Of a DNA stretch of 64,000 bases, positions 7,519 through 47,099 are shown in pieces. The first letter of the stretch is position 1; each line of letters opens with the position of its first letter. The DNA comes from an uncultured SAR116 cluster alpha proteobacterium (GTDB lineage: Bacteria > Pseudomonadota > Alphaproteobacteria > Puniceispirillales > GCA-002684695): NCBI GenBank assembly GCA_902612965.1, contig CACMFN010000011.1, positions 1-64,000 on the forward strand. The letters run 5' to 3'. The notes under the pieces were generated by a model, which had not been told where the DNA came from, made no database searches, and worked only from the letters and a program-made list of their open reading frames with translations. Position numbers and translations under genes: made by a program.

Positions 7519-8187
7519 TTAATTTTTAATTTGTTCATAAGCTAATGCAGCAACAATATGTGTTCTTGTTTCTTCACCCCCATTTAAAGCGGTATGGTAT
7601 CCTCTTGTATCTGTGAAATAAACTGAACCATCTGCTGGTAAGTGTGTTAAATGGTGGTTTACAATAAATAGGGAACCTGGGTTTGTTTCAATTGGAATAT
7701 GGATTCTAGGTTCAGGGTCCCTGTGCCATGAATTACAATTATAAATTCCTTTTGATAAAACTCTCATTCGACCAATTGGGAACCTTTTTATCAATTCAGT
7801 GTAAACTTTCTCAAAGTAGGTTCCTTTAAGTTTTGGATTAAACTCAGAAAATTGTTTTTCTTCAATTAATTCTTCTCTGGGTTCTTCTTTGTAGTGTTTA
7901 TCACCTCTAATCCAATACCTTCCAGATAAATCATTTTCTGTCCATTCCTTTTGTCCTGGCCTTTGTGTCAAAGAAAAAACACTAAACCCATAATCGTTTT
8001 TTTTATTCTGAGTTATATTTTCTAACTTCAATTTGTGAAGACAATCCCTAAGTTTATTGATATCAAACTTGAGCTTTAATTTATGAATTCCTGGTCCAGG
8101 AATAAATTCAGTAACTCTACTATGATCAGGGATTTTTGACATAGCATTTTTTATAAATATAACGTCTTCATCTAAATCATCTCTCAT
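7519..8187 (-). CDS. Putative Fe(II)/2-oxoglutarate oxygenase, aspartyl/asparaginyl beta-hydroxylase-like
   Basis: 222 residues, cytoplasmic. Residues about 158-172 carry WHRDPEPRIHIPI, an HxD metal pair in a double-stranded beta-helix strand; further on YFTDTRGYHTALNGG supplies the distal His, and EETRTHIVAAL a conserved Arg suitable for the 2-oxoglutarate carboxylate. That order (HxD...H...R) fits the aspartyl/asparaginyl hydroxylase-type cupin fold. The first 90 residues look like a substrate-recognition module. Substrate unknown; could be a protein side chain or a free metabolite. It stands alone between an accessory stretch and the helicase gene. Confidence 0.7.
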   Translation of the reverse strand: MRDDLDEDVIFIKNAMSKIPDHSRVTEFIPGPGIHKLKLKFDINKLRDCLHKLKLENITQNKKNDYGFSVFSLTQRPGQKEWTENDLSGRYWIRGDKHYKEEPREELIEEKQFSEFNPKLKGTYFEKVYTELIKRFPIGRMRVLSKGIYNCNSWHRDPEPRIHIPIETNPGSLFIVNHHLTHLPADGSVYFTDTRGYHTALNGGEETRTHIVAALAYEQIKN

Positions 8188-8381
8188 ATTTAACTTCCTA
8201 ATTTATTTTAAATAAATGCTAATTGAAATTGTTTGCTATTAACAATTTAGAAGATAAAGGTAAATATTAAAAATATTACTTTTAGATCTTTCTAAGCAAC
8301 AAAAATAAATTAAAAATCCAAAGTAAAATTAAAATATATATTAATGATATTAATAAATAGTATTTTCTGTTACTAAGCGTG

Positions 8382-9794
8382 ATGGAAAATATTTATAAAA
8401 TAAATAAAACACTTTTTGAAAATATAAGAAATAAGGGGTTTACTAGTTTCACAGATGTTCAAAAAAATGTAATTAAAAAAAATAATTATAACTGTGATTT
8501 ACTCGTAAGTTCTAAAACTGGATCTGGTAAGACTTTAGCTTATTGTTTATCTATATCAGATGATGTTTTGAAAAAAAAAATAAAAATTAATTCAGCACCT
8601 ACTGGATTAATAGTTGCGCCCACAAGAGAACTTGCACTTCAAGTTTTTGAAGAAATACAATGGTTGTTTAAAAACACAAAATTAATTGCTGTTACTTCAA
8701 TAGGGGGTATGGATATAAGCAAAGAACGAAAAAAAATCTCTAAAAAGTTTAATTTATTAATTGGTACACCTGGTAGAATAAATGATCATCTAAGAAAAAA
8801 GTTTTTAAATCTATCACAATTGTCTTTTTTGGTTTTAGATGAAGCTGACGAAATGCTTGATTTAGGTTTTAAGGAGGATTTAGAAGCTATTATTCAGTCT
8901 TGTTCAATAAACACAAGAAAACTTTTATTTTCAGCAACTTTGCCGAAAAAAATAATATTTTTGGCAAATAAGTATTTAACAAATCCAAAAAAAATTGAAG
9001 TGTCTAATCAAGATATTCCTCATTCAGATATTGAGTACGAAACCTTTTTTATAAATAAAAAAGACAATGAAAATGCTATTTTTAATTTATTAAGATACTA
9101 CGATAACAAAAATGTTTTAATTTTCTGTTCAACAAGAGCTTCCGTTACTCATGTCCATACAAGGTTACTTAATAGAGGATTTAAAGTTGTGTGTCTTTCT
9201 GGTGCGCTGAGTCAATCTGAAAGGTTTAAAGCTCTTCAAGACATGAAAAATGGAAGGTCTAAAATTTGTGTTGCAACCGATGTGGCTGCCCGAGGTATAG
9301 ACTTAGTTGATTTAGACATAGTCATTCATGCTGATTTGCCCAAAAATAGGGAAAATCTTTTGCATAGAAGTGGAAGGACTGGTAGAGCAGGTAAAAAAGG
9401 TAAATGCATTTTATTCTTTTCACCTAAAGAAATTAAGTTTTATGAGAATTTAATTTTTGAAGCTAAAATAAAACCTAGGCTCAAAAGATTTTTTCAAAAA
9501 GAGGAAATAGAAAATAAAGATAATGAAAAAATTATTAATAATATCTTTTTAAATGAAAGAGTTCCAGATAATGAAGAAATCATTTTAAAAGAAATTATTG
9601 ATAAATTTTCTATAAGAGAAATTGCTTTAGCTTATATAAAAAATATAAAGAAGGATTTATCACCAATTGAAGATGTAGAGGATATATATAATTCACTTAA
9701 TGAATTAAGATCTATTCAAAAAAAATATAAATATAAAAAAAAGGGAAAAAAAAGAAGTTTTAAATTTAAAGACAGAAAAAAAAGTAAAAGATAA
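8382..9794 (+). CDS. DEAD-box ATP-dependent RNA helicase
   Basis: 470 residues from the ATG at 8382 (a GTG three bases earlier is less likely). All motifs are present in order: Q motif (FTSFTDVQ), motif I SKTGSGKT, Ia PTRELALQ, TPGR, II DEADEM, III SAT, then ATDVAARGID and HRSGRTGRAG (VI). The C-terminal 90 residues are Lys/Glu-rich and end in a strongly basic tail, typical of CsdA/RhlE-like helicases that unwind structured rRNA or mRNA, often during cold growth or ribosome assembly. The poly-A-rich codons make several lysine runs. It stands alone with no clear operon partner. Confidence 0.93.
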   Translation: MENIYKINKTLFENIRNKGFTSFTDVQKNVIKKNNYNCDLLVSSKTGSGKTLAYCLSISDDVLKKKIKINSAPTGLIVAPTRELALQVFEEIQWLFKNTKLIAVTSIGGMDISKERKKISKKFNLLIGTPGRINDHLRKKFLNLSQLSFLVLDEADEMLDLGFKEDLEAIIQSCSINTRKLLFSATLPKKIIFLANKYLTNPKKIEVSNQDIPHSDIEYETFFINKKDNENAIFNLLRYYDNKNVLIFCSTRASVTHVHTRLLNRGFKVVCLSGALSQSERFKALQDMKNGRSKICVATDVAARGIDLVDLDIVIHADLPKNRENLLHRSGRTGRAGKKGKCILFFSPKEIKFYENLIFEAKIKPRLKRFFQKEEIENKDNEKIINNIFLNERVPDNEEIILKEIIDKFSIREIALAYIKNIKKDLSPIEDVEDIYNSLNELRSIQKKYKYKKKGKKRSFKFKDRKKSKR

Positions 9795-29820: not shown

Positions 29821-30819
29821 ATGGTTTTACTTGGTCAAGATTTTTGGAAATCCTCAGGGTGGCATCTTTTAGATAAAAATGACGAAGGTTATCTTAATGT
29901 AACTGAAGATTTTATTGCTGCTTATTTTGAGAGGCCTGAACTCGTACCAATTGAAGAATCTTGTAGTAATGAGAGAGACCTTCATAAAAAACTGACTTTA
30001 AACCCTACTATGAAAGTAGAGAATAAAGATCTTGAAAAATTTAAGGATAAAGACTCAGCGTTTAATTATCAAATGGTCTTAAACTTTAGAGATTTTATAT
30101 TGCAACAATTGACGCTTGAAACTGCTCTTGTAAATATTTCAAAGGGTGAAAAAATAAATTTTCCACCTCTTTTTGTTAGTCAAATTGTACATGTAATTGT
30201 CAGATCAATTGTAGATGGCTGGGTTGACCCAATACACTTAAGGGCCTCAGAAATACTTTTTAGGGAACAAAGCGTAACCTTAGATAATGGGCGAATTATG
30301 GTCGCAGACCGTTCTACTGTTCAATTTCAAACACAACAAAGTTCTCTAAATACTGAAAAAAATCCATCAAATATGACACAAATTGATATTCTTACTGAGG
30401 ATAGCGGCAATGAGTATTGGGGAAGATCAGATAATTTTGATACAGCAATTGATATTGCTTTTGGTCAACCAGGACTAGATGGTTTGTGCAGAGTATATGA
30501 AGCATGGATAGCACATTTTTTAAAATTTTCTTGTCAGATCAGACCGATGTCAAAAATTGAGGATGATAAATGGAAGTGGCATATTGGATTGGATGTTTCA
30601 TCAAACTCAATATTAAACGATTTATACAATGGTAAAGAAGTTTCTGAACAGCAACTTAAGCAAATTCTAGCTTTGTTTTCTTTAAATCCTGATAATAAAA
30701 ATATTTTCAAAGAAGATATGAGGGGGTATCCAGTTTATCTTGGTTTATCAATGAATGAATTCGGAGTTATAAGTTGTAAACCTCAAAATTTACTGGTTAA
30801 TTTGCCTATTCTAAATTAG
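29821..30819 (+). CDS. DUF6352 family protein
   Basis: 332 residues, cytoplasmic. Begins LGQDFWKSSGWHLLDKNDEGYLNVTEDFIAAYFERPELVPI (residues 4-44), matching DUF6352 as I remember it, and has a mixed alpha/beta body with WVDPIHLRASEILFREQ near 136. The C-terminal region YWGRSDNFDTAIDIAFGQPGLDG (about 200-222) is strongly patterned. Function unknown; membership in the FDH assembly locus is the only clue. Its stop shares two bases with the stop of the convergent polyferredoxin gene. Confidence 0.78.
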   Translation: MVLLGQDFWKSSGWHLLDKNDEGYLNVTEDFIAAYFERPELVPIEESCSNERDLHKKLTLNPTMKVENKDLEKFKDKDSAFNYQMVLNFRDFILQQLTLETALVNISKGEKINFPPLFVSQIVHVIVRSIVDGWVDPIHLRASEILFREQSVTLDNGRIMVADRSTVQFQTQQSSLNTEKNPSNMTQIDILTEDSGNEYWGRSDNFDTAIDIAFGQPGLDGLCRVYEAWIAHFLKFSCQIRPMSKIEDDKWKWHIGLDVSSNSILNDLYNGKEVSEQQLKQILALFSLNPDNKNIFKEDMRGYPVYLGLSMNEFGVISCKPQNLLVNLPILN

Positions 30820-32828
30820 TTATAATCATCTGTTGTCCTTGGTTTAGGTCTTTCGCCTACATCCATAATTTTATCATCTTGTTTAAATTGTTCTTCAACT
30901 CTACAATCTTCGCACATTAAAATTAGATCAATTCTTTTCTCATCAACAAACATTGAATGATTTGATAATCGTTTTTGAATAGACTCAATAGATTTCTGTG
31001 TCCCAAAAATCTTTCCGCAAACTTTACATGGAAATGGTTTGTCCTCAACTTTTAACTCACTTGACATTGAACTATCGGCTAGATTGATTTGGGGCTTAAG
31101 TGAAATCACTTTTTCAGGACAGGTTTTAACGCATATACCACACTGAATGCATGCGTCTTCTCTGAAAAGTAGTTGAGGTGTTTCAGGATTGTCCTGTAAA
31201 GCTCCCGCAGGACAAGCACTTACACAAGCCAAGCATAAAGTACAATTATTTTCATCAATGGTCACATTACCATAGGGTGACCCCTGTGGTAATTCTATCA
31301 CATCAGTTTTGAATTTATTCTCTTTAGATAGGCCTTTAAGGGCTGTACGAACAATGTTTTTATTTGTGCCAGTGGCAACATATTGTGTATGGTTAAACTT
31401 CTGGGGTTTTTCCAGTTTAAGAAGCTCATCGTTCAATTTTTCTGGATCATTTGTTTCTATAGCTTTGTAAAAAGCCTTTCCATTAGAAATTTCTCCAACC
31501 ATGGCATTGGCAAGGTTTATTTGATCATAAAGAGTTTCATTTTCTATATTTTTCTGAGGATTACAGAGTACCAAAACATTTGAAAATCCTACAGCTGTGG
31601 CTCCTACAAGTAAATCATGGCCTACTCTTCCAGTTGAATGAATTTCTATTGGAATTAGATCATGGGGGAGACCATCATATATTCTTGATAAATAAGAAAT
31701 AATTCCTGCCCCATGTGCGCTGTCATGAAACAATAATTTTGGCATTTGATTTTCAATTCTTAGGTAATTACTAGAGATTTTTTGCAATCTATTCAACAAA
31801 TGGCTTGATGAAGGCCATATCACATCAGCTGCCCCAGATGGGCATACTGCACCGCATAAACCGCATCCACCACAAACAGCAGTATTTATATCAACAGTAT
31901 CTCCATTGATTTGAATTGCATTGGCTGGACAAACTTCTAAGCATTTCGAACATCCAGTGATTTTATTTCGAGAATGCGCACATAAATTTTCATCAAAATT
32001 TACGTAAATTGGCTTCTCAAATTCACCAATTTTAGTTTGAGCATCAAGTATGAGCTTTTGAAGAGCTGTTTTGTCTTCAGGATTAACTTTATAGTAACCA
32101 TCCCTCTTTTCATGAGAGCTAATTAAAGGATCGCTGCCAGATAAATCAATAAAGATATCGCACTCAGATGATACGTCTTGGCTAACATCTCCAAAAATAA
32201 TTTCATCTTTACTTTGTGGAAGAGCTTCAGCAAAATTGTTAATTTTCACTTCAAAATTTCCAAAATACCCCTTTAAGCTTTTAACTTTACCAATTAATAT
32301 ATTAAAATTAGTATTTGTTGGTGGTATAATTGATATGTTTTTAGTAAGAAGTGCGCTAACACCCAAATATTCAGACAATGCTTCTGCAACTTCAATAACT
32401 CGTTCATTGTCTCCGTATATTAAGCACCTGCCAGCAGAATTAAATGATAGGCTCCTAGAAGTGTTTTTAGAATTCAACATTTCAACTGCATCTAAAATTT
32501 GGGAAGAGATTTTAGCAGATGCCTTTTTAGATGATTTTGACCATCCTGATGTTTCCCGAATATTAAAAAAATATGGTATTTCTTGATTATTCTCTTCTGC
32601 AATTTCAGTAAAAAGTTTTGTTTGTTGGGTGCAAGCAACTGCAATTTTTTTGTTATTTTCCGAAGAATTTATAAGCGCACTTTCAAATTCATTAATTTCA
32701 TTTGTGCACAATGAGTTAAAAATTTTTGGTTTGCTTTCTAAATTACAACCATCTCCAATCTTTTTTGGATCAAGTGGCATTGTTTCACCACAATTACATA
32801 TCAAGACTTCTGTTTCGTTGATTTCCAT
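30816..32828 (-). CDS. Large 4Fe-4S polyferredoxin-like protein of the formate dehydrogenase locus
   Basis: 670 residues. N-terminal Cys-rich start (ICNCGETMPL), central ferredoxin pair near 293-330 (CSKCLEVCP, CGGCGLCGAVCP), a middle domain, a second pair near 529-570 (CTLCLACVSACP, CIQCGICVKTCP), and a zinc-ribbon-like end (CKVCG ... CEDC, 601-641). At least four 4Fe-4S clusters are predicted. Cytoplasmic. Such proteins stand next to DUF3305 in many FDH loci, transcribed the opposite way. Likely an electron or sulfur carrier for enzyme maturation; unproven. Confidence 0.88.
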   Translation of the reverse strand: MEINETEVLICNCGETMPLDPKKIGDGCNLESKPKIFNSLCTNEINEFESALINSSENNKKIAVACTQQTKLFTEIAEENNQEIPYFFNIRETSGWSKSSKKASAKISSQILDAVEMLNSKNTSRSLSFNSAGRCLIYGDNERVIEVAEALSEYLGVSALLTKNISIIPPTNTNFNILIGKVKSLKGYFGNFEVKINNFAEALPQSKDEIIFGDVSQDVSSECDIFIDLSGSDPLISSHEKRDGYYKVNPEDKTALQKLILDAQTKIGEFEKPIYVNFDENLCAHSRNKITGCSKCLEVCPANAIQINGDTVDINTAVCGGCGLCGAVCPSGAADVIWPSSSHLLNRLQKISSNYLRIENQMPKLLFHDSAHGAGIISYLSRIYDGLPHDLIPIEIHSTGRVGHDLLVGATAVGFSNVLVLCNPQKNIENETLYDQINLANAMVGEISNGKAFYKAIETNDPEKLNDELLKLEKPQKFNHTQYVATGTNKNIVRTALKGLSKENKFKTDVIELPQGSPYGNVTIDENNCTLCLACVSACPAGALQDNPETPQLLFREDACIQCGICVKTCPEKVISLKPQINLADSSMSSELKVEDKPFPCKVCGKIFGTQKSIESIQKRLSNHSMFVDEKRIDLILMCEDCRVEEQFKQDDKIMDVGERPKPRTTDDYN

Positions 32829-32979
32829 AATTATACTAACTTACTGATTTTGTTTATTAAAAAATAAAATTTTAATTTTTTGCAAATTTATTGCATTATT
32901 CTAACATAGAAGAGGGGTACAAACTGTCAATGTTCAAATTAAATAATTAACGTTGAATTGATGGTAATTGGGAAAAGTG

Positions 32980-33576
32980 ATGTCAGAAATAAAACCTGAG
33001 TTTAAACATGTTTTAATGCCTGTTAGAGTAATTTTAAAACGTAGTGTCTCAAATAATAAATGGATTGACCACACGTGGTCTGTAGTTGATGTCCTTCCAG
33101 GAAGTGGAAATAATGACAGCACAATAAAGCCTATATTTGAAGATAAAAAAAATGATAAGTATGACTTATTTAAAGTTGAAACTGAAATTGATCTTCACAG
33201 AGCAGAAGCTGAAGCATATGTTGAGAATTTAGGTTCAACAGATCCAGCCATTTACGTTGTTTTAAGTCCTGATGCGCCTGATAGCGATCCTACTGATTAT
33301 GGCGTTACTCTTGATAGTGTTTGCCTATCTCCCTATAGAATTCAAGACTATGAAGATATTGGTGAAGATATAATTGAAAAATTTAAATTAGAAGGTGCTA
33401 TAGCAAATTTCTTAGAAGACTTTGTAAAAAATCACTTTAAGCCTGAAAAATTTATTAAAAGGAAAAGGGATCGAAAAGATAAAACAGATCTAGTTGTTGA
33501 AGGTAAGGGTGATCCAAGAATACGTCAAAAGTCTGATGTTTACAGAGCGCCAAAAAGAAATATTAAAAAAAATTGA
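32980..33576 (+). CDS. DUF3305 protein of the formate dehydrogenase locus
   Basis: 198 residues from the ATG at 32980 (TTG four codons earlier is less likely). Core: MPVRVILKRSVSNNKWIDHTWSVVDVLPG (about 13-41), VETEIDLHRAEAEAYVENLGSTDPAIYVVLS, and SVCLSPYRIQDYEDIGEDIIEKF, all as in DUF3305. The last 40 residues are basic. Together with DUF3306, TorD and FdhA this order is conserved in Alphaproteobacteria. It probably helps mature or load FdhA. The divergent polyferredoxin shares the 150-base promoter region. Confidence 0.9.
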   Translation: MSEIKPEFKHVLMPVRVILKRSVSNNKWIDHTWSVVDVLPGSGNNDSTIKPIFEDKKNDKYDLFKVETEIDLHRAEAEAYVENLGSTDPAIYVVLSPDAPDSDPTDYGVTLDSVCLSPYRIQDYEDIGEDIIEKFKLEGAIANFLEDFVKNHFKPEKFIKRKRDRKDKTDLVVEGKGDPRIRQKSDVYRAPKRNIKKN

Positions 33577-33589
33577 GAACAATTAACAT

Positions 33590-34348
33590 ATGAAAAATAA
33601 TGATAAAGATGATAATTTGGGAAATGATTCCAGTTTTTTAACTAGGTGGTCTAAAAGAAAGTCTGAGTCAAACGAAGTTTCTTCAAAAAGTGAGCAAAAT
33701 GAAAAAAACACTCTTGATGTTAAGGATGAGTTAAAAGAAGAAGAGAATAAACTCTCAAATGATGAGCTTGCTGAAAAATATGAAGTCACAAATCCTGAAA
33801 AAATAGATAATCCACTAGATCTTAAGAAGATATTAAAAGAAAATCTTCCTGATAGACTGAAACAAGTTGCATTAAGAAAATTATGGAAATTAGTCCCTGC
33901 CTATGGAGAAATTTCAGAATTAGTTGAGTATGGTGAAGATTTTACTGATGCTGCAACTGTTATAGAAAATTTACAGACATCTTATATTGTTGGGAAAGGT
34001 TACATAGATAAAGTCGTAGAAAAAAGTAAAGACTTAATTACAGACGATGATAATTTATCACAAGAGGATAAAGTTTCAAATAATAAAGTTTCAAATAATA
34101 AAACTTCAAAGAAGAAAAGTGCTAAAGCAAAAAATTCTCAATCTAATGAAGAAGTTGAAAAACATAATAAAAAAATTGATAAAACAAACAAGTATGAAGA
34201 AACAAACCGCATTTCAGAGAAACATCATAATTATGAAGATGAAAGTGAAAATAAAGTAAGTTATAAAGAGAAAGAAAATATATCGTTAGAAACTGATTCC
34301 AATAGTAAACCATTAAAAGCGTCTAGAATGGTCTTTGTTAAAAAATAA
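33590..34348 (+). CDS. DUF3306 protein of the formate dehydrogenase locus
   Basis: 252 residues. N-terminal FLTRWSKRKSES, then a central folded part PDRLKQVALRKLWKLVPAYGEISELVEYGEDFTDA (about 83-117), the DUF3306 core with LRKLW. The second half is a low-complexity Lys/Glu/Asn tail with a short repeated unit (KVSNN, twice at about 163-172). No membrane segment or signal, so cytoplasmic. Fourteen bases after DUF3305. Probably an assembly factor for FdhA; the tail is longer than usual, which I cannot quantify. Confidence 0.88.
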   Translation: MKNNDKDDNLGNDSSFLTRWSKRKSESNEVSSKSEQNEKNTLDVKDELKEEENKLSNDELAEKYEVTNPEKIDNPLDLKKILKENLPDRLKQVALRKLWKLVPAYGEISELVEYGEDFTDAATVIENLQTSYIVGKGYIDKVVEKSKDLITDDDNLSQEDKVSNNKVSNNKTSKKKSAKAKNSQSNEEVEKHNKKIDKTNKYEETNRISEKHHNYEDESENKVSYKEKENISLETDSNSKPLKASRMVFVKK

Positions 34349-34440
34349 AATTTTAATTTTAATTAAATATATCTCAAATTTAAATCTGATCCTTAAATCT
34401 TTAAAACCAATTATTCTTAGTATTCCAATAAATATCAAAA

Positions 34441-34459
34441 CAGTACAAAAATAGTACTA
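34441..34459. promoter_or_regulatory. Repeated dyad element, copy 1, upstream of torD
   Basis: cagtacaaaaatagtacta matches 34573-34591 at 16 of 19 bases. Each copy holds two AGTAC-type half sites 11 bases apart, one helical turn. It lies 153 bases before the torD start. A protein-binding operator is the simplest reading; the regulator is unknown. Confidence 0.5.
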
Positions 34460-34572
34460 TTTGTAATAAAATTTATATCGATATTTATATTTTTTTTGGA
34501 ATAAAAAATGCTTGTAGGGTCGCTAAAATTGTGGTTAAGTGATTCTTAAGTACTTGATTTTATTATATAAAT

Positions 34573-34591
34573 CAGTACTGAATTAGTACTA
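34573..34591. promoter_or_regulatory. Repeated dyad element, copy 2, just upstream of torD
   Basis: cagtactgaattagtacta, ending 20 bases before the ATG of torD at 34612, with two AGTACT palindromes 11 bases apart. A lone AGTACT sits between the copies at 34549-34554. Placement next to the start suggests it overlaps the promoter or early leader and could be a repressor site. Confidence 0.5.
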
Positions 34592-34611
34592 ATTAGTTTA
34601 AATGTTTAAAT

Positions 34612-35223
34612 ATGCATAATTTAAAGAACGACAATAGTATATCTGAAGAAGATAAAATTCGCTCAGATATGTATTGTTTTTTAGCTGGAGTTCTTCAAAG
34701 AGAGCCTTCTGACGATCTCGTTAGAGGATATAATGATTTGAAAGGTGACAAATCAGATATTGGTAAAGCATTTAGCGTTTTATCAGATTTATCTAAAAAG
34801 GTTAGTTCAAATGATATCAGGAATGAATATCAAAACTTATTCATTGGTGTCGGAAGGGGTGAGTTATTACCGTTTGGATCATTTTACATCACTGGTTTTT
34901 TACATGATAAGCCACTCGCTTCTATTAGAAGAGATTTAAACGCAATGGGAATTAAAAGAGGTGACGATTTCAAAGAGCCCGAAGATCATATTGCTTGTTT
35001 ATGTGAAATCATGTCGGGAATGATTACTGGTGAATATGGTAAATATTTTTCAGTTCCCGAGCAAAGAAGTTTTTTTAAAAAACATATTCAGCCTTGGGCT
35101 GAGCATTTTTTTACAGATTTAGAAGGAGCAAAGTCTGCAATTTTTTATTCACCTGTTGGAACAATAGGTAAGTTGTTTATTAAAATTGAAGAGGAAGCTT
35201 TTTCAATGGATGCATCAAGGTAG
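34612..35223 (+). CDS. TorD/DmsD family chaperone for formate dehydrogenase
   Basis: 203 residues, all-helical, cytoplasmic. Family signature DEDKIRSDMYCFLAGVLQREP-like start, EYQNLFIGVGRGELLPFGSFYITGFLHDKPLA (residue region 73-104, where TorD has E-Y-x-x-L-F and PYxSxYL-like), then EPEDHIACLCEIMSGMI (123-139), which is the conserved E-P-D-H. TorD proteins hold the Mo/W enzyme, proof its Tat signal and help insert cofactor. Precedes the Tat peptide and FdhA, the likely client. Confidence 0.92.
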   Translation: MHNLKNDNSISEEDKIRSDMYCFLAGVLQREPSDDLVRGYNDLKGDKSDIGKAFSVLSDLSKKVSSNDIRNEYQNLFIGVGRGELLPFGSFYITGFLHDKPLASIRRDLNAMGIKRGDDFKEPEDHIACLCEIMSGMITGEYGKYFSVPEQRSFFKKHIQPWAEHFFTDLEGAKSAIFYSPVGTIGKLFIKIEEEAFSMDASR

Positions 35224-35280: not shown

Positions 35281-35466
35281 ATGTCAAAAAATAAAGAGAA
35301 AGTCGATAGAAGAAAATTTCTAAAGATGTCGGCTGTGGGTGCTGCTGGTGGAGCTGCTGTTATTGCTTCAAAATCAGTTTCTGCAGACACAAAAAGTTTT
35401 AGTAATAAGACTGGTTACAGGGAAACTGAACTAGTTAAAACTTATTACTTATCAACAAGATTTTAA
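35281..35466 (+). CDS. Small Tat-signal protein of the formate dehydrogenase locus
   Basis: 61 residues. Residues 9-31 form a Tat signal (DRRKFLKMSAVGAAGGAAVI), leaving only about 30 mature residues (TKSFSNKTGYRETELVKTYYLSTRF region). AGGAG precedes the ATG. It is the formate-dehydrogenase-region Tat-target family, always between TorD and FdhA. It may be a small subunit or a decoy that keeps the chaperone free. FdhA itself also has a Tat signal, so it is not the only export route. Confidence 0.88.
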   Translation: MSKNKEKVDRRKFLKMSAVGAAGGAAVIASKSVSADTKSFSNKTGYRETELVKTYYLSTRF

Positions 35467-35496: not shown

Positions 35497-38388
35497 ATGT
35501 TGAGAAAGAAGACGAATGGGGTGGCGATTGGCTCCCGTACATCATCTTTCATTGGTAAAGTTGCTTCAAAGGTTGTCGATAGAAGAACTTTTTTAAGAAG
35601 TTCTGGTCTGGCAGTTGGCGGTATTGCGGCAGTTACAGCTTTATCTGGAAAAATGGTTAAACCAGCATTAGCAACAACAGCTGGTGGAAACATATCAGTA
35701 AAAAAATCAGTTTGCTCACACTGTGCAGTTGGTTGTACGGTAATGGCCGAAGTCCAAGATGGTGTTTGGACTGGACAAGAGCCTGGATGGGACAGCCCGA
35801 TAAACCTTGGTGCACATTGTGCAAAGGGTGCATCTGTTAGAGAAACTGCTCAGGGCGAAAGAAGATTAAAATATCCTATGAAATTAGTTGCTGGTAAGTG
35901 GCAAAGAATTAGTTGGGATGAAGCCATTAATGAAATTGGCGATAAAATGCTCGATATAAGAAAATCATCAGGTCCAGATTCAGTTTACTGGTTAGGCTCA
36001 GCGAAGCATGGAAATGAACAAGCATATTTGTTCAGAAAGCTATATGCCTACTGGGGTTCTAATAATGGTGATCACCAAGCAAGAATTTGTCACTCTACAA
36101 CTGTTGCAGGGGTAGCAAATACTTGGGGTTATGGTGCAATGACAAATTCATTCAATGATATCCATAATTCAAAAGCAATTTTTGTAATTGGTGGTAATCC
36201 TGCTGAAGCTCATCCAGTATCATTAGTGCATTTGATGAAAGCTAAAGAGCAAAATAATGCACCTCTAATCGTTGCAGATCCTAGATTTACTAGAACTGCA
36301 GCTCACGCTGACGAATATATTAGATTCCGTCCAGGTTCTGACGTTGCTTTGATTTGGGGTATTTTGTATCACATTTTTGAAAATGGATGGGAAGATAAAG
36401 AATTTATTCGCCAGCGTGTTTGGGGAATGGATCAAATTAGAGAAGAAGTTGCAAGATGGACCCCTGAAGAAACAGAAAGAGTTACTGGCGTTCCAGGATC
36501 ACAGTTAAAACGTGTAGCTAAGGTAATGGCTAACAACAGACCTGGCACCTTTATTTGGTGTATGGGTGGAACACAACATACAACTGGTAATAATAATACC
36601 AGAGCATATTGTGTTTTTCAGTTAGCTCTTGGAAACATGGGAGTAACAGGTGGCGGAACAAATATTTTCCGTGGACACTGTAACGTTCAAGGTGCTACAG
36701 ACTTTTGTGTTTTATCACACTCACTACCTGGATACTATGGTCTTTCAGGCGGTGCTTGGGCTCACTGGTCTAGGGTTTGGGGCGAAGACCTTGATTGGCT
36801 GAAAGGCAGATTTGATAAAATCAAGGGCAAAGACGGCAAAGAGAAGTCGTTAATGAACCTAAAAGGCTTTCCTGTTTCGAGATGGATCGATGGAGTTCTC
36901 GAAGACAAGGAAAATATGGATCAGCCTGATAATTTAAGGGCGATGGTTTTTTGGGGTCATGCTCCTAACTCTCAAACAAGACTTCCTGATATGAAAAAGG
37001 CAATGGAAAAGCTTGATTTGATGGTTGTTATTGATCCTTATCCAACAATGTCTGCTGTACTTTCAGATAGAACAGATGGCGTGTATTTGTTGCCAGCATG
37101 CACTCAGTTTGAGACATACGGCTCTATTACAGCCTCTAACAGGACAATTCAGTGGAGAGAGAAGATTATAGAACCTTCTTTTGACTCACTTCCAGATCAT
37201 ACGATTATTTATAAGTTTGCAAAAAAACTTGGTTTTGCTGATCGTATGTTCAGAAATATTAAAGTGGAAAATGATGAGCCGCTAATTGAAGACGTTACTC
37301 GCGAATGGAACAGTGGAATGTGGACAATTGGATATACTGGTCAGTCTCCAGAGCGTCTAAAAGCCCATATGAAGTATCAGCATACATTTGATAAGACAAC
37401 ACTTCAAGCTGTTGGTGGTCCATTAGATGGTGAATATTATGGTATGCCATGGCCTTGCTGGGGCACACCTGAAATGAAACATCCAGGAACACCTAATTTG
37501 TATGACACATCAAAGCCAGTTGCTGAGGGTGGGTTATGTTTTAGAGCTCGTTTTGGAGTTGAGCGTGATGGTGAAAATCTTCTTGCAGAAGGATCATATC
37601 CAGTAGGTTCAGAGATCAAAGATGGTTACCCGCAATTTACAATGGGCATGCTTAAAGATCTTGGATGGGATAAAGATCTTACCACAGATGAAAGAAATTT
37701 CATTGAAGGTTTAGCTGGAGATAAAACAAACTGGAAAACAGACCTTACTGGCGGTATTCAAAGGGTAGCAATTAAACATGGTTGCGCACCATTTGGTAAT
37801 GCTAAAGCAAGAGCTGTTGTATGGACATTTCCAGATCCAGTTCCAATTCATAGAGAGCCACTATACACTAATAGACGTGACTTAGTAGCTGACTATCCAA
37901 CATATGAAGATAGACACGCTTATAGACTTCCAACAATGTATAAGTCTATTCAAGATGTTGATCATTCTAAGAACTTTCCTATGATTTTAACATCAGGTCG
38001 CTTAGTAGAATATGAAGGTGGTGGTGATGAAACGCGTTCAAACCCGTGGCTTGCAGAATTACAGCAAGATATGTTTGTCGAAATTAATCCTAGAGATGCA
38101 AATACAATAGGAATAAGAGACGGAGACATGGTGTGGGTTAGAACTCCTGAAGGTGCTAGCATTAAGGTTATGTCAATGGTAACTGAACGTGTTGCAGCTG
38201 GTGTGGCGTTTCTCCCTTTTCATTTTGGTGGACATTACCAAGGTGAAGATCAAAGGCATAAATACCCAGAAGGGGCAGATCCATACGTATTAGGTGAGGC
38301 TGCAAATACAGCGATGACCTACGGATATGACTCAGTAACTCAGATGCAGGAATCTAAGTGTTCCCTTTGTCTGATTGAACGTGCGTAA
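35497..38388 (+). CDS. Formate dehydrogenase alpha subunit (Mo/W-bisMGD)
   Basis: 963 residues. Tat signal at 28-46 (DRRTFLRSSGLAVGG), 4Fe-4S ligands Cys73, Cys76, Cys80 and Cys108 (CSHCAVGC...HC), and the active-site Cys198 followed by His199 (RICHSTTV) where selenocysteine enzymes have Sec. GHAPNSQ and the late molydopterin-binding region ILTSGRLVEYEGGG follow. It oxidises formate to CO2 in the periplasm. A TupA-like binding protein nearby raises the chance of tungsten rather than molybdenum. The ATG has AGGAG upstream. Confidence 0.95.
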   Translation: MLRKKTNGVAIGSRTSSFIGKVASKVVDRRTFLRSSGLAVGGIAAVTALSGKMVKPALATTAGGNISVKKSVCSHCAVGCTVMAEVQDGVWTGQEPGWDSPINLGAHCAKGASVRETAQGERRLKYPMKLVAGKWQRISWDEAINEIGDKMLDIRKSSGPDSVYWLGSAKHGNEQAYLFRKLYAYWGSNNGDHQARICHSTTVAGVANTWGYGAMTNSFNDIHNSKAIFVIGGNPAEAHPVSLVHLMKAKEQNNAPLIVADPRFTRTAAHADEYIRFRPGSDVALIWGILYHIFENGWEDKEFIRQRVWGMDQIREEVARWTPEETERVTGVPGSQLKRVAKVMANNRPGTFIWCMGGTQHTTGNNNTRAYCVFQLALGNMGVTGGGTNIFRGHCNVQGATDFCVLSHSLPGYYGLSGGAWAHWSRVWGEDLDWLKGRFDKIKGKDGKEKSLMNLKGFPVSRWIDGVLEDKENMDQPDNLRAMVFWGHAPNSQTRLPDMKKAMEKLDLMVVIDPYPTMSAVLSDRTDGVYLLPACTQFETYGSITASNRTIQWREKIIEPSFDSLPDHTIIYKFAKKLGFADRMFRNIKVENDEPLIEDVTREWNSGMWTIGYTGQSPERLKAHMKYQHTFDKTTLQAVGGPLDGEYYGMPWPCWGTPEMKHPGTPNLYDTSKPVAEGGLCFRARFGVERDGENLLAEGSYPVGSEIKDGYPQFTMGMLKDLGWDKDLTTDERNFIEGLAGDKTNWKTDLTGGIQRVAIKHGCAPFGNAKARAVVWTFPDPVPIHREPLYTNRRDLVADYPTYEDRHAYRLPTMYKSIQDVDHSKNFPMILTSGRLVEYEGGGDETRSNPWLAELQQDMFVEINPRDANTIGIRDGDMVWVRTPEGASIKVMSMVTERVAAGVAFLPFHFGGHYQGEDQRHKYPEGADPYVLGEAANTAMTYGYDSVTQMQESKCSLCLIERA

Positions 38389-38400
38389 AGGAGGTATATC

Positions 38401-38994
38401 ATGGCACGAATGAAATTTTTATGTGATGCAGAAAGATGTATTGAATGTAACGCATGTGTAACTGCATGTAAAAATGAAAACGAAGTACCTTGGGGTGTTA
38501 ACAGAAGAAGAGTTGTAACAATTCAAGACGGTAAACCTGGCGAGAGGTCAATCTCTGTTGCATGTATGCACTGTTCAGATGCACCATGTATGGCAGTTTG
38601 CCCAGTTGATTGCTTTTATCAAACAGACCAAGGGGTAGTTCTACATTCAAAGGATTTATGTATTGGATGTGGATACTGCTTTTATGCATGTCCTTTTGGA
38701 GCTCCTCAATTTCCACAATCCGGGAATTTTGGTTCAAGAGGTAAAATGGATAAATGTACTTTTTGTGCAGGTGGACCAGAAGCTGATATGTCTGATAACG
38801 AATTCCAAAAGTATGGAAGGAATAGACTTGCTGAAGGAAAGTTACCTATATGTGCAGAAATGTGTTCTACCAAAGCACTCCTAGCTGGTGATGGCGATAT
38901 CGTCTCTGATATTTTTAGAGAAAGAGTTGTTGCTAGAGGATTTGGTGCTGGAGCATGGGGCTGGGGAACAGCTTACTCCATGAAAGGTACTTAA
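38401..38994 (+). CDS. Formate dehydrogenase beta subunit (FDH3 type, four 4Fe-4S)
   Basis: 197 residues. Four cluster motif sets: CIECNACVTACKNE (start), CMHCSDAPCMAVCPVDC, CIGCGYCFYACPFG, and CTFC with CAEMC further on. This is the electron bridge from FdhA to the membrane subunit. No membrane anchor of its own, unlike FdnH, in agreement with FDH3-type complexes. Starts 12 bases after fdhA behind AGGAGG. A perfect hairpin follows at 39004. Confidence 0.95.
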   Translation: MARMKFLCDAERCIECNACVTACKNENEVPWGVNRRRVVTIQDGKPGERSISVACMHCSDAPCMAVCPVDCFYQTDQGVVLHSKDLCIGCGYCFYACPFGAPQFPQSGNFGSRGKMDKCTFCAGGPEADMSDNEFQKYGRNRLAEGKLPICAEMCSTKALLAGDGDIVSDIFRERVVARGFGAGAWGWGTAYSMKGT

Positions 38995-39292: not shown

Positions 39293-40387
39293 ATGATTTT
39301 TAAAAATATTTCTGTTAAAAATTTTTATATTTTAATTTTTTTGTCATTATTCATTGTCTTAAACTTTAGTTTTAATTCTTTCTCACAAACAGCAGGTCAA
39401 GTACCTGGTTCTTCTTTAGGATTAAATTCAGATGCTGATTTATGGAGATATATCAGGCAAGGTAATTCTGGTGACTCGCAAATAGGTCAATTAGGATCAG
39501 AATTGTCCGCCGTTATGATACAATCAGAAGGTGACAATTGGAGATCAATTAGAAACGGACCCTTATCAAGATATGGTGCATATGGGTTAATAGGAATGCT
39601 TGTTTTATTAGCATGGTTTTATTCTTATCGAGGAAGAATAAAAGTTGCTAAAGGCTTTTCAGGTGAAACAATCACTAGGTTTAAAGCAATAGAAAGATTT
39701 TCACATTGGTTAATGGCAGGCTCCTTTGTTATTTTAGCAATTACTGGTTTAAATATGGTATACGGAAAATTTGTTCTTCTTCCTATTTTAGGACCTGATG
39801 CATTCTCAGCGTTAACTGTTGCTGGTAAATATTCACATAACTTTTTAGCATTTGCATTTATGATTGGTTTGGTGATGTCATTTTTTTGCTGGGTAACACA
39901 CAATATACCTTCAAAATTAGATATTGAATGGTTAAAACAAGGCGGTGGTTTGTTTAGTGATGATGCTCATCCACCAGCAAGAAAGTTTAATGCTGGTCAA
40001 AAGATAATTTTTTGGGCTGTAATGTTAGGTGGTTTATCAATCAGTTTATCAGGTTGGGCACTTTTGTTTCCATTTGAGACCAAAATGATGGCAAAAACTT
40101 TTGGTATTCTTAATATGGTTGGTTTTAATCTGTCTACAGATCTAACCCCTTTACAAGAACAACAACTTCAAACAATATGGCACGGTATAGTTGGGTTAGT
40201 TCTCATAATTATTATTATTGCACATATTTATATCGGTTCATTAGGTATGCAAGGTGCTTTTGATGCGATGAATAGTGGTGAAGTTGATAGAAATTGGGCT
40301 AAAGAACATCATGGTTTATGGGTTGAAGAAGAAGATCAAAAAGCTAATGATACTGGTAAAGACGGTATTAAACAACCCGCTGAATAA
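39293..40387 (+). CDS. Formate dehydrogenase gamma subunit (cytochrome b)
   Basis: 364 residues. N-terminal signal or first helix (FYILIFLSLFIVLNFSF), a periplasmic segment, then four core membrane helices with haem-b histidines: ERFSHWLMAG, KYSHNFLAFAFM, IWHGIVGLVLIIIIIAHIY. It takes electrons from FdhB and gives them to quinone. The extra periplasmic segment of about 80 residues between the signal and the core is larger than in FdnI. Its end overlaps the WD40-cytochrome gene by 41 bases. Confidence 0.92.
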   Translation: MIFKNISVKNFYILIFLSLFIVLNFSFNSFSQTAGQVPGSSLGLNSDADLWRYIRQGNSGDSQIGQLGSELSAVMIQSEGDNWRSIRNGPLSRYGAYGLIGMLVLLAWFYSYRGRIKVAKGFSGETITRFKAIERFSHWLMAGSFVILAITGLNMVYGKFVLLPILGPDAFSALTVAGKYSHNFLAFAFMIGLVMSFFCWVTHNIPSKLDIEWLKQGGGLFSDDAHPPARKFNAGQKIIFWAVMLGGLSISLSGWALLFPFETKMMAKTFGILNMVGFNLSTDLTPLQEQQLQTIWHGIVGLVLIIIIIAHIYIGSLGMQGAFDAMNSGEVDRNWAKEHHGLWVEEEDQKANDTGKDGIKQPAE

Positions 40388-45692: not shown

Positions 45693-46058
45693 ATGAAAAT
45701 AAAAAATAATAAAACTAAAAAACCAGGCATTAGATTAAAAGTATATGTAAGAGAGGATATGGTTGGTGGAGGAAAGCTAGAATTACTTCGAATTGTAGGT
45801 GAAACAGGTTCAATTTCTTCTGCAGCTAAAAAAATGGGACTTGATTATAAAAGAGCGTGGTTTCTTCTTGATACTTTGCAAAGGTGTTTTAAAGATCCTT
45901 TATACGTCACAAGTAGAGGTAGAGGAGTTTCTAGGGGTACTGTTTTAACACAACTTGGCTCTCAGTTAATAATTAGATTTAGTAAGACAGATAAAAAAGT
46001 AAAAGAAGTTACATCAAGTTTTTTAAAATGGTTAGAAGAAAATCAAAGATTAAAATAA
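45693..46058 (+). CDS. ModE-type winged-helix DNA-binding protein, no metal-binding domain
   Basis: 121 residues. KLELLRIVGETGSISSAAKKMGLDYKRAWFLLDTLQRCF (about residues 27-65) is the LysR/ModE-type helix-turn-helix, followed by GRGVSRGTVLTQLGSQLI, the winged part. ModE in E. coli has two molybdate-binding TOBE domains after this; none is here, as in the alphaproteobacterial short ModE. It ends one base before the convergent MoaA gene. Likely tunes Mo/W genes nearby; ligand unknown. Confidence 0.88.
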   Translation: MKIKNNKTKKPGIRLKVYVREDMVGGGKLELLRIVGETGSISSAAKKMGLDYKRAWFLLDTLQRCFKDPLYVTSRGRGVSRGTVLTQLGSQLIIRFSKTDKKVKEVTSSFLKWLEENQRLK

Positions 46059-47066: not shown

Positions 47067-47099
47067 AATATTTTATTCGATATTTAACAAAATTTGTAA

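Follow-up and report, generated by a model that had tools for sequence, protein, structure and literature searches.

What controls formate oxidation in an uncultured SAR116 bacterium? Members of SAR116 abound in sunlit ocean waters, where iron is scarce, and the window considered here (the whole stretch of DNA that was analysed, 64 kb) contains a torD-fdh operon preceded by repeated AGTACT words. From the comparison of this promoter with those of relatives, we consider that the dyads formed by these words are operators of an iron and Fe-S regulon of the SAR116 lineage, with the Rrf2-family SUF regulator as the most likely binder, a reading to which we would assign a probability of about 60%.

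The torD-fdh Operon and Its Upstream Dyads

The presumed operon lies on the plus strand and opens with a gene for a TorD-type chaperone (Nitrate_red_del; 34612..35223), which matches the NCBIfam TorD model below its cut-off. Next comes a small ORF of 61 aa (35281..35466), the translation of which shows by eye a twin-arginine-like start, and which, to judge from its position between torD and fdhA, would belong to the same function. The molybdopterin catalytic subunit of formate-dehydrogenase type (35497..38388) has TIGR01591 (Fdh-alpha) as its best NCBIfam match, below the model cut-off, and its nearest named loci, mostly from SAR116, are at 84%. A 4Fe-4S ferredoxin-type subunit (38401..38994) and a cytochrome b561-type membrane subunit (39293..40387) complete the set. 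Ahead of the operon, positions 30816-34348 hold a ferredoxin-like gene on the minus strand and genes for DUF3305 and DUF3306 proteins.

The 19-mers at 34441-34459 (CAGTACAAAAATAGTACTA) and 34573-34591 (CAGTACTGAATTAGTACTA) are identical at 16 of 19 bases and lie exactly where the earlier note had placed them. Its other measurements hold as well: the half sites are 11 bp apart within each copy, a solo AGTACT is present at 34549-34554, and 20 bp separate the proximal copy from the torD ATG (34612). While the repetition stands, the division of each copy into two separate AGTACT operators does not, as each copy is better described as a single 19-bp dyad, TAGTAC-N7-GTACTA. Both copies, a candidate distal operator 152 bp 5′ of the ATG and a candidate proximal operator, are unstranded and deviate from this pattern by one mismatch. 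In both the outermost T is changed to C, and the same change is found in an iron-uptake promoter of a congener (G001). A third, degenerate site, also unstranded, may lie at 34548..34566; it keeps the left half alone (the solo AGTACT), starts 25 bp before the proximal operator and is not significant by itself. The position of the proximal operator suits repression of some kind. A search of the plus strand of the fdh promoter region for sigma-70-like promoters found none. By eye, the dyads match neither FNR nor ModE sites, in agreement with what had been remarked before, and an Irr site was likewise rejected.

Taken alone, a pair of 19-mers this similar (16 or more identities in 19) is unremarkable for a stretch of 19% GC, being matched in 8 of 60 dinucleotide shuffles, and bare AGTACT shows no significant enrichment over the 64-kb window, with 16 occurrences against 10.9 expected and 7 of 100 shuffles as high. 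The local arrangement is a different matter. The 263-bp torD intergenic region contains AGTACT four times, a count reached in none of 20,000 shuffles (mean 0.06); two dyads at no more than one mismatch are likewise found in 0 of 20,000, and at least one dyad in 21 of 20,000. In the entire window, the two torD sites are the only dyads at this threshold. From the repeat and the excess of dyads over shuffles, a regulator-binding operator with repeated sites is very probably present, as had been proposed. Of the further proposal that the operator is cooperative, the repeated sites are retained and cooperativity is suggestive only, in that the solo AGTACT lies 25 bp from the proximal copy, a spacing also found in two of the four tandem pairs described below for another promoter. 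In the window's own assembly (G000; 2.14 Mb, 83% complete), exact matches to CAGTACNNNNNTAGTACTA are restricted to the two window sites. The same search also returned one-mismatch sites at other places in the assembly, one of which has another dyad next to it, and it was the loci of these sites that revealed the symmetric pattern TAGTAC-N7-GTACTA, hereafter the box.

Formate Dehydrogenase Promoters of Relatives

The earlier note had attributed the sites to a regulator of formate oxidation and had set the presence of the pattern upstream of orthologous fdh loci as the test. The pattern is absent there, since none of 108 other torD upstream stretches carries a site at one mismatch or fewer, these stretches being drawn from 79 of 80 named loci (L012 lacks torD) and 29 of 37 other torD-bearing genomes, with 8 genomes left out, some genomes in both sets, some stretches short and one (L075) wrongly cut. 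One of the 108 (L069) has a box with two mismatches. The box is kept instead before genes for iron uptake, heme degradation and a regulator of Fe-S assembly, and both observations argue against a regulator specific for formate oxidation. Formate use is probably tied to iron status rather than to such a regulator, and the best reading is that formate dehydrogenase joined an iron and Fe-S regulon in this genome. In the four congeners (61-88% complete) no torD was detected, which leaves a single genome with known fdh sites.

Both the TAGTAC box and a Fur-like box are missing from most torD promoters. A Fur-like 19-mer at shuffle p ≤ 0.02 is present in seven of 109 torD stretches (L011, L015, L091, L100, L103, L109 and L113), where about two would be expected by chance. 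The strongest are all from SAR116, with an exact 15-mer in L113 and L103 and one mismatch in L015. In the torD upstream stretch of the window's assembly (L089), the best match to a Fur box (TGATAATGATTATCA-like 15-mer) has five mismatches. Given the Fur-like boxes at some torD promoters, and given that another promoter of the order, that of DUF4856, is Fur-like in one genus (g4) and carries TAGTAC boxes in the window's genus, other members of the SAR116 order may also place fdh under iron control, with the regulator exchanged.

The Box in the Genus of the Window

Five genomes (G000-G004) represent the window's genus (g1). The most consistent occurrence of the box in them is a tandem pair in the promoter of a DUF4856-hydroxylase-FutA-FutB operon, seen in all four genomes in which this promoter is assembled (G000, G001, G002 and G004); in G003 it falls outside the contig examined. 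The spacings within the pairs are 25, 33, 26 and 25 bp, respectively, and the mismatches 0+2, 1+2, 0+0 and 0+2, so that the better member has 0-1 and its partner 0-2. In the window's assembly, the operon consists of the DUF4856 gene, a fatty-acid-hydroxylase-like gene, a ferric-iron-binding protein of FutA/FbpA type, which matches FbpA 1q35 at E 1.9e-87, and a permease. Where the genus has TAGTAC boxes, the same promoter in g4 has by eye Fur-like boxes (seven sequences), and none of 12 DUF4856 loci of g4, g13 and g17 has a TAGTAC box at two mismatches or fewer. In several g4 genomes (L276-L283), the DUF4856-futA operon has a bacterioferritin gene close by (the one examined matches TIGR00754) and Fur-like stretches in the vicinity.

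An exact box also precedes hmuQ in both genus genomes that have the gene (G003 and G004), the HmuQ heme-degrading protein scoring above its curated model cut-off. Outside the genus, none of 14 hmuQ loci has the box at two mismatches or fewer (16 of 21 loci were parsed). Further boxes are found at a pair of SDR and aminotransferase genes in G000 and G002, and at a small G002 gene that resembles, by eye, the gene divergent from hmuQ in G003 and G004. Among 17 genus boxes, A at -5 and C at -4 occur in 34 of 34 half sites and T at -3 in 23 of 34, counts that are not independent, as the boxes were picked by hand and found through these very arms and spacing.

Another box lies in a convergent phzF/nudix interval, in L164 (G000 C32, about 570-660) and in L165 (G001 C9, about 8100-8535), beside a conserved stretch, GAGTAAGGAGAATAGTTGCCACCCA. 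This stretch could possibly be a small RNA under the same regulator; a search of Rfam at gathering level on three box loci, the phzF/nudix interval included, gave no match.

The Box before rrf2 in Other Genera

The link to Fe-S metabolism comes from g4, a genus of the same order represented by 31 genomes. Here 22 of 27 exact sites lie directly 5′ of the rrf2 start in an hspQ-rrf2-sufB cluster. Considering the g4 genomes with an Rrf2 match, 22 of 23 have the exact box at rrf2 (in one of them, G042, rrf2 carries a stop), and the remaining one, G007, has it with one mismatch. In these boxes the arms are fixed and the N7 spacer is variable. Two other genera of family f4 have a box with one mismatch at the same rrf2 position (G031 of g11 and G058 of g17). 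The eight genomes of g13 have no Rrf2 match and no exact box, with SufB present in all three that were searched. In G028 (L315, C10), a remnant of rrf2 lies between hspQ and sufB and a one-mismatch box persists. A joint decay of box and gene was considered for this genome and rejected as uninformative, the box having just one mismatch as in G007; box and gene do not vanish together here, an observation that is neutral or mildly contrary.

Counts across 101 genomes of the SAR116 order follow the same division, with the reversed pattern as a control that is imperfect, as the words it contains may themselves occur more or less often than expected. In families f1 and f4 (47 genomes), exact TAGTAC-N7-GTACTA has 35 sites and the reversed control 5; in f2 and f3 (54 genomes), the numbers are 1 and 21. 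The genome-wide excess disappears once mismatches are allowed (18 against 31 reversed at one mismatch or fewer, 41 against 123 at two or fewer), and sites with one or two mismatches were accordingly rejected as regulon members on a genome-wide basis. As the control outnumbers them, weak sites are mostly chance, and it is conserved position and pairing that count. Some good sites are intragenic (L123, L127, L174 and L193).

In families f2 and f3, the rrf2 promoters carry a different word. Of 26 loci (30 examined minus 4 without a tblastn match), 24 contain GAC-N7-GTC, 1 contains the reversed control and none contains the TAC box at one mismatch or fewer. In several f3 promoters of rrf2-suf (L205, L206, L222 and others), a Fur-like stretch, TGATAATCATTCGCA, comes immediately after the GAC-N7-GTC box. 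The fdh dyads themselves have TAGTAC/GTACTA as arms and not those of GAC-N7-GTC. Since one form stands at rrf2 in g4 and the other at rrf2 in f2 and f3, with the geometry also known from RisR of Myxococcus xanthus, the box (TAGTACTAWWWTAGTACTA) looks like a variant, with changed arms, of the Rrf2-family box GAC-N7-GTC of other SAR116 families and RisR. In the rrf2 promoters of the window's genus (G000, G002 and G003), the box is absent and a conserved TTTAGA-N5-TCTAAA is found instead, which we take to be like an Irr box.

A Candidate Regulator

The window's assembly encodes an Rrf2-family SUF regulator before sufB (contig C7:40059-40445, minus strand). It is the sole Rrf2 match in the assembly, and it passes the SUF system regulator model TIGR02944 with 124.3 bits against a cut-off of 110.65, while failing the RirA model NF008886 (45.9 against 193 bits) and not passing the IscR models. 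Three cluster cysteines are arranged as C-x7-C-x5-C. In an unrooted Rrf2 tree of 33 rows, the proteins of f2 and f3, with GAC boxes, stand apart from those of f4 and g1, with TAC boxes (support 94/91). The recognition helices of the genus (LPVPTVAKV, LSIPTVAKV) differ from those of g4 (such as LALYTVQKL) and are like f3 at some positions. A rule that would relate the helix to T or G at the sixth position of the box was rejected, as the lineages are too few and Q at position 43 (E. coli IscR numbering) occurs with both box types.

Although the box, its excess, the genes that it precedes and its position at rrf2 in g4 are direct observations, binding by the Rrf2 of this particular genome is what we infer, because the rrf2 promoter of the genus has no box, its helix is unlike that of g4, and two box-bearing genomes, G001 and G004, show no true Rrf2 match. 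In these two genomes the rrf2-suf locus is probably unassembled, given that a SufB match is also missing from both.

How the protein would act is a further question. A cluster-loaded Rrf2 dimer on the proximal box, near the presumed transcription start, would repress torD-fdh; iron or oxidative stress would then cause loss of the cluster and release of Rrf2 from this box, and the distal box could provide extra occupancy or looping. We hold the odds that control takes this direction, repression by the cluster-loaded form, to be about even. To repress an Fe-S-rich enzyme while clusters are plentiful would be odd. In addition, fdh expression in Clostridioides difficile follows iron supply and falls at low iron, partly through Fur (PMC6311696), which would speak against simple iron-loaded repression; the organism and the enzyme (FdhF) are different there, and no such box is described in the accessible part of that report.

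Relation to Known Iron and Fe-S Regulators

Features of the E. coli IscR type 1 site, which has an ACT-N5-AGT core, an AT center and G at the sixth position from the center, can be recognised in the box. Core and center are alike in both, and the sixth position is T here and not G. Control of iron and Fe-S genes by Rrf2 proteins is well established (PMC5863699, PMC4618611 and PMC11475020). RisR of M. xanthus is an Rrf2 protein encoded before suf that represses both suf and isc through the site TtGAC-N7-GTCC, so that it shares with the present case an rrf2 gene adjoining suf and the GAC-N7-GTC dyad geometry in AT-rich flanks (PMC9973013). It differs in that the arms of the box are TAGTAC/GTACTA and in that the genus has the box at iron uptake, hmuQ and, in one genome, fdh, and lacks it at rrf2. 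Rhizobial RirA is an Rrf2 Fe-S protein that represses iron-uptake genes, with suf under both RirA and Irr (PMC5863699). The likeness to RirA and its IRO box lies in the kind of regulator and the iron-uptake genes, and the candidate described here passes TIGR02944 and not the RirA model. Similarly, the Rrf2 protein IscR of the Rhodobacteraceae binds the Iron-Rhodo-box, a palindrome of 19 bp that precedes iron-uptake genes (PMC4618611); the box described here is like it in size, symmetry and position. IscR of Rhodobacter sphaeroides has a single Cys in its C-terminal part, compared to C-x7-C-x5-C in the candidate.

Among the best matches listed in open-access literature, nothing was found on this SAR116 box, on a SAR116 Rrf2 or on Rrf2 control of formate dehydrogenase. 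As far as that literature shows, three things are new: the TAC version of the box, its distribution over SAR116 and its position ahead of fdh. That one box is shared by ferric-iron uptake, the use of heme and a molybdopterin formate dehydrogenase rich in Fe-S would mean that C1 energy metabolism in these bacteria may follow iron status. A more extended scenario, which we rate at somewhat short of even odds, is that in part of SAR116 the word of the SUF regulator changed from GAC-N7-GTC to TAC-N7-GTA, and that the regulator, in the window's genus, then took ferric-iron uptake and heme degradation from Fur and, in one genome, formate oxidation. If true, this would be a recent rewiring of an iron regulon with its stages visible in living relatives. 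It would also offer a specific example, open to experiment, of co-evolution between a transcription factor and its site, and of control passing between Fur and an Rrf2 regulator.

Other Possible Binders

The strongest competitor, which we nevertheless regard as unlikely, keeps the iron-responsive operator and assigns it in the genus to another protein, be it a sensor of iron or heme that has escaped recognition or a member of the Fur family with a changed site, the link to Rrf2 existing in g4 only. The absence of the box at rrf2 in the genus and its different recognition helix would fit this idea, as would the TAGTAC boxes that stand, at the DUF4856-futA promoter, where g4 has Fur-like boxes, and the Fur-family genes found in the genus, some of which, in some congeners, are Fur- and Irr-like by eye. 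On the other hand, rrf2 in g4 is preceded by this very dyad of 19 bp, an unusual one, and its ACT-N5-AGT core is Rrf2-like. Moreover, G000 and G002 carry boxes and yet have just one Fur-family match of 38 bits each, beside zinc-type transporter genes by eye, in assemblies that are incomplete (83% and 88%). Binding by the Rrf2 SUF regulator stays the preferred reading.

Many sites of LysR-type regulators are ATAC-N7-GTAT dyads of equal spacing, often in tandem, and a protein of this type would account for both the spacing of the dyads and their arrangement. In G004 a lysR gene has a one-mismatch box 22 bp ahead of it, and its 98% ortholog in G003 has one with two mismatches. Nonetheless, the best matches to that LysR in the box-bearing G000 and G002 are merely 30% and 21% identical, the G001 ortholog (74%) has no box at two mismatches or fewer, and the box before rrf2 in g4 would be left unexplained, which makes this alternative improbable.

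It is less probable still that the fdh copies are chance products of AT-rich DNA and that the real regulon excludes fdh. Both sites do have one mismatch and are unconserved in relatives, but none of the 20,000 shuffles of the region contained two of them, and the T to C change shared by both copies recurs in the G001 iron-uptake promoter. About as remote is an RNA element, with the imperfect inverted repeat AGTACT-tGATTT..AAATC-AGTACT (34549-34579) or the dyads acting as a leader hairpin or as the terminator of an upstream operon: the folds of 34540-34601 (z -2.42, 3 of 200 shuffles as good) and 34431-34470 (z -1.86, 12 of 200) would favor it, whereas self-complementary AGTACT words alone produce such folds, no terminator-like site was found in the fdh promoter region, and the distance from box to start varies among the other genes, as for a DNA site.

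Finally, the ModE-type regulator encoded at 45693-46058 would couple fdh to molybdenum, and it deserves very little credence as the binder of the dyads. In its favor are a similarity to the ModE DNA-binding domain (53.4 bits to TIGR00637, short of the 98.5 cut-off), the molybdopterin nature of formate dehydrogenase and one AGTAC half site that precedes the ModE-type gene; against it, the boxes track iron genes, neither the ModE-type gene nor the moaA/tup-like promoter has a dyad at one mismatch or fewer, and a different word, TCGATATTTA, is common to the fdh and moaA/tup-like promoters. This word occurs exactly twice in the window, at 34478-34487 between the torD boxes and at 47077-47086 in the divergent moaA/tungstate-binding-like promoter, a count of two that 2 of 100 shuffles reach, and it is a candidate site of the ModE-type regulator.
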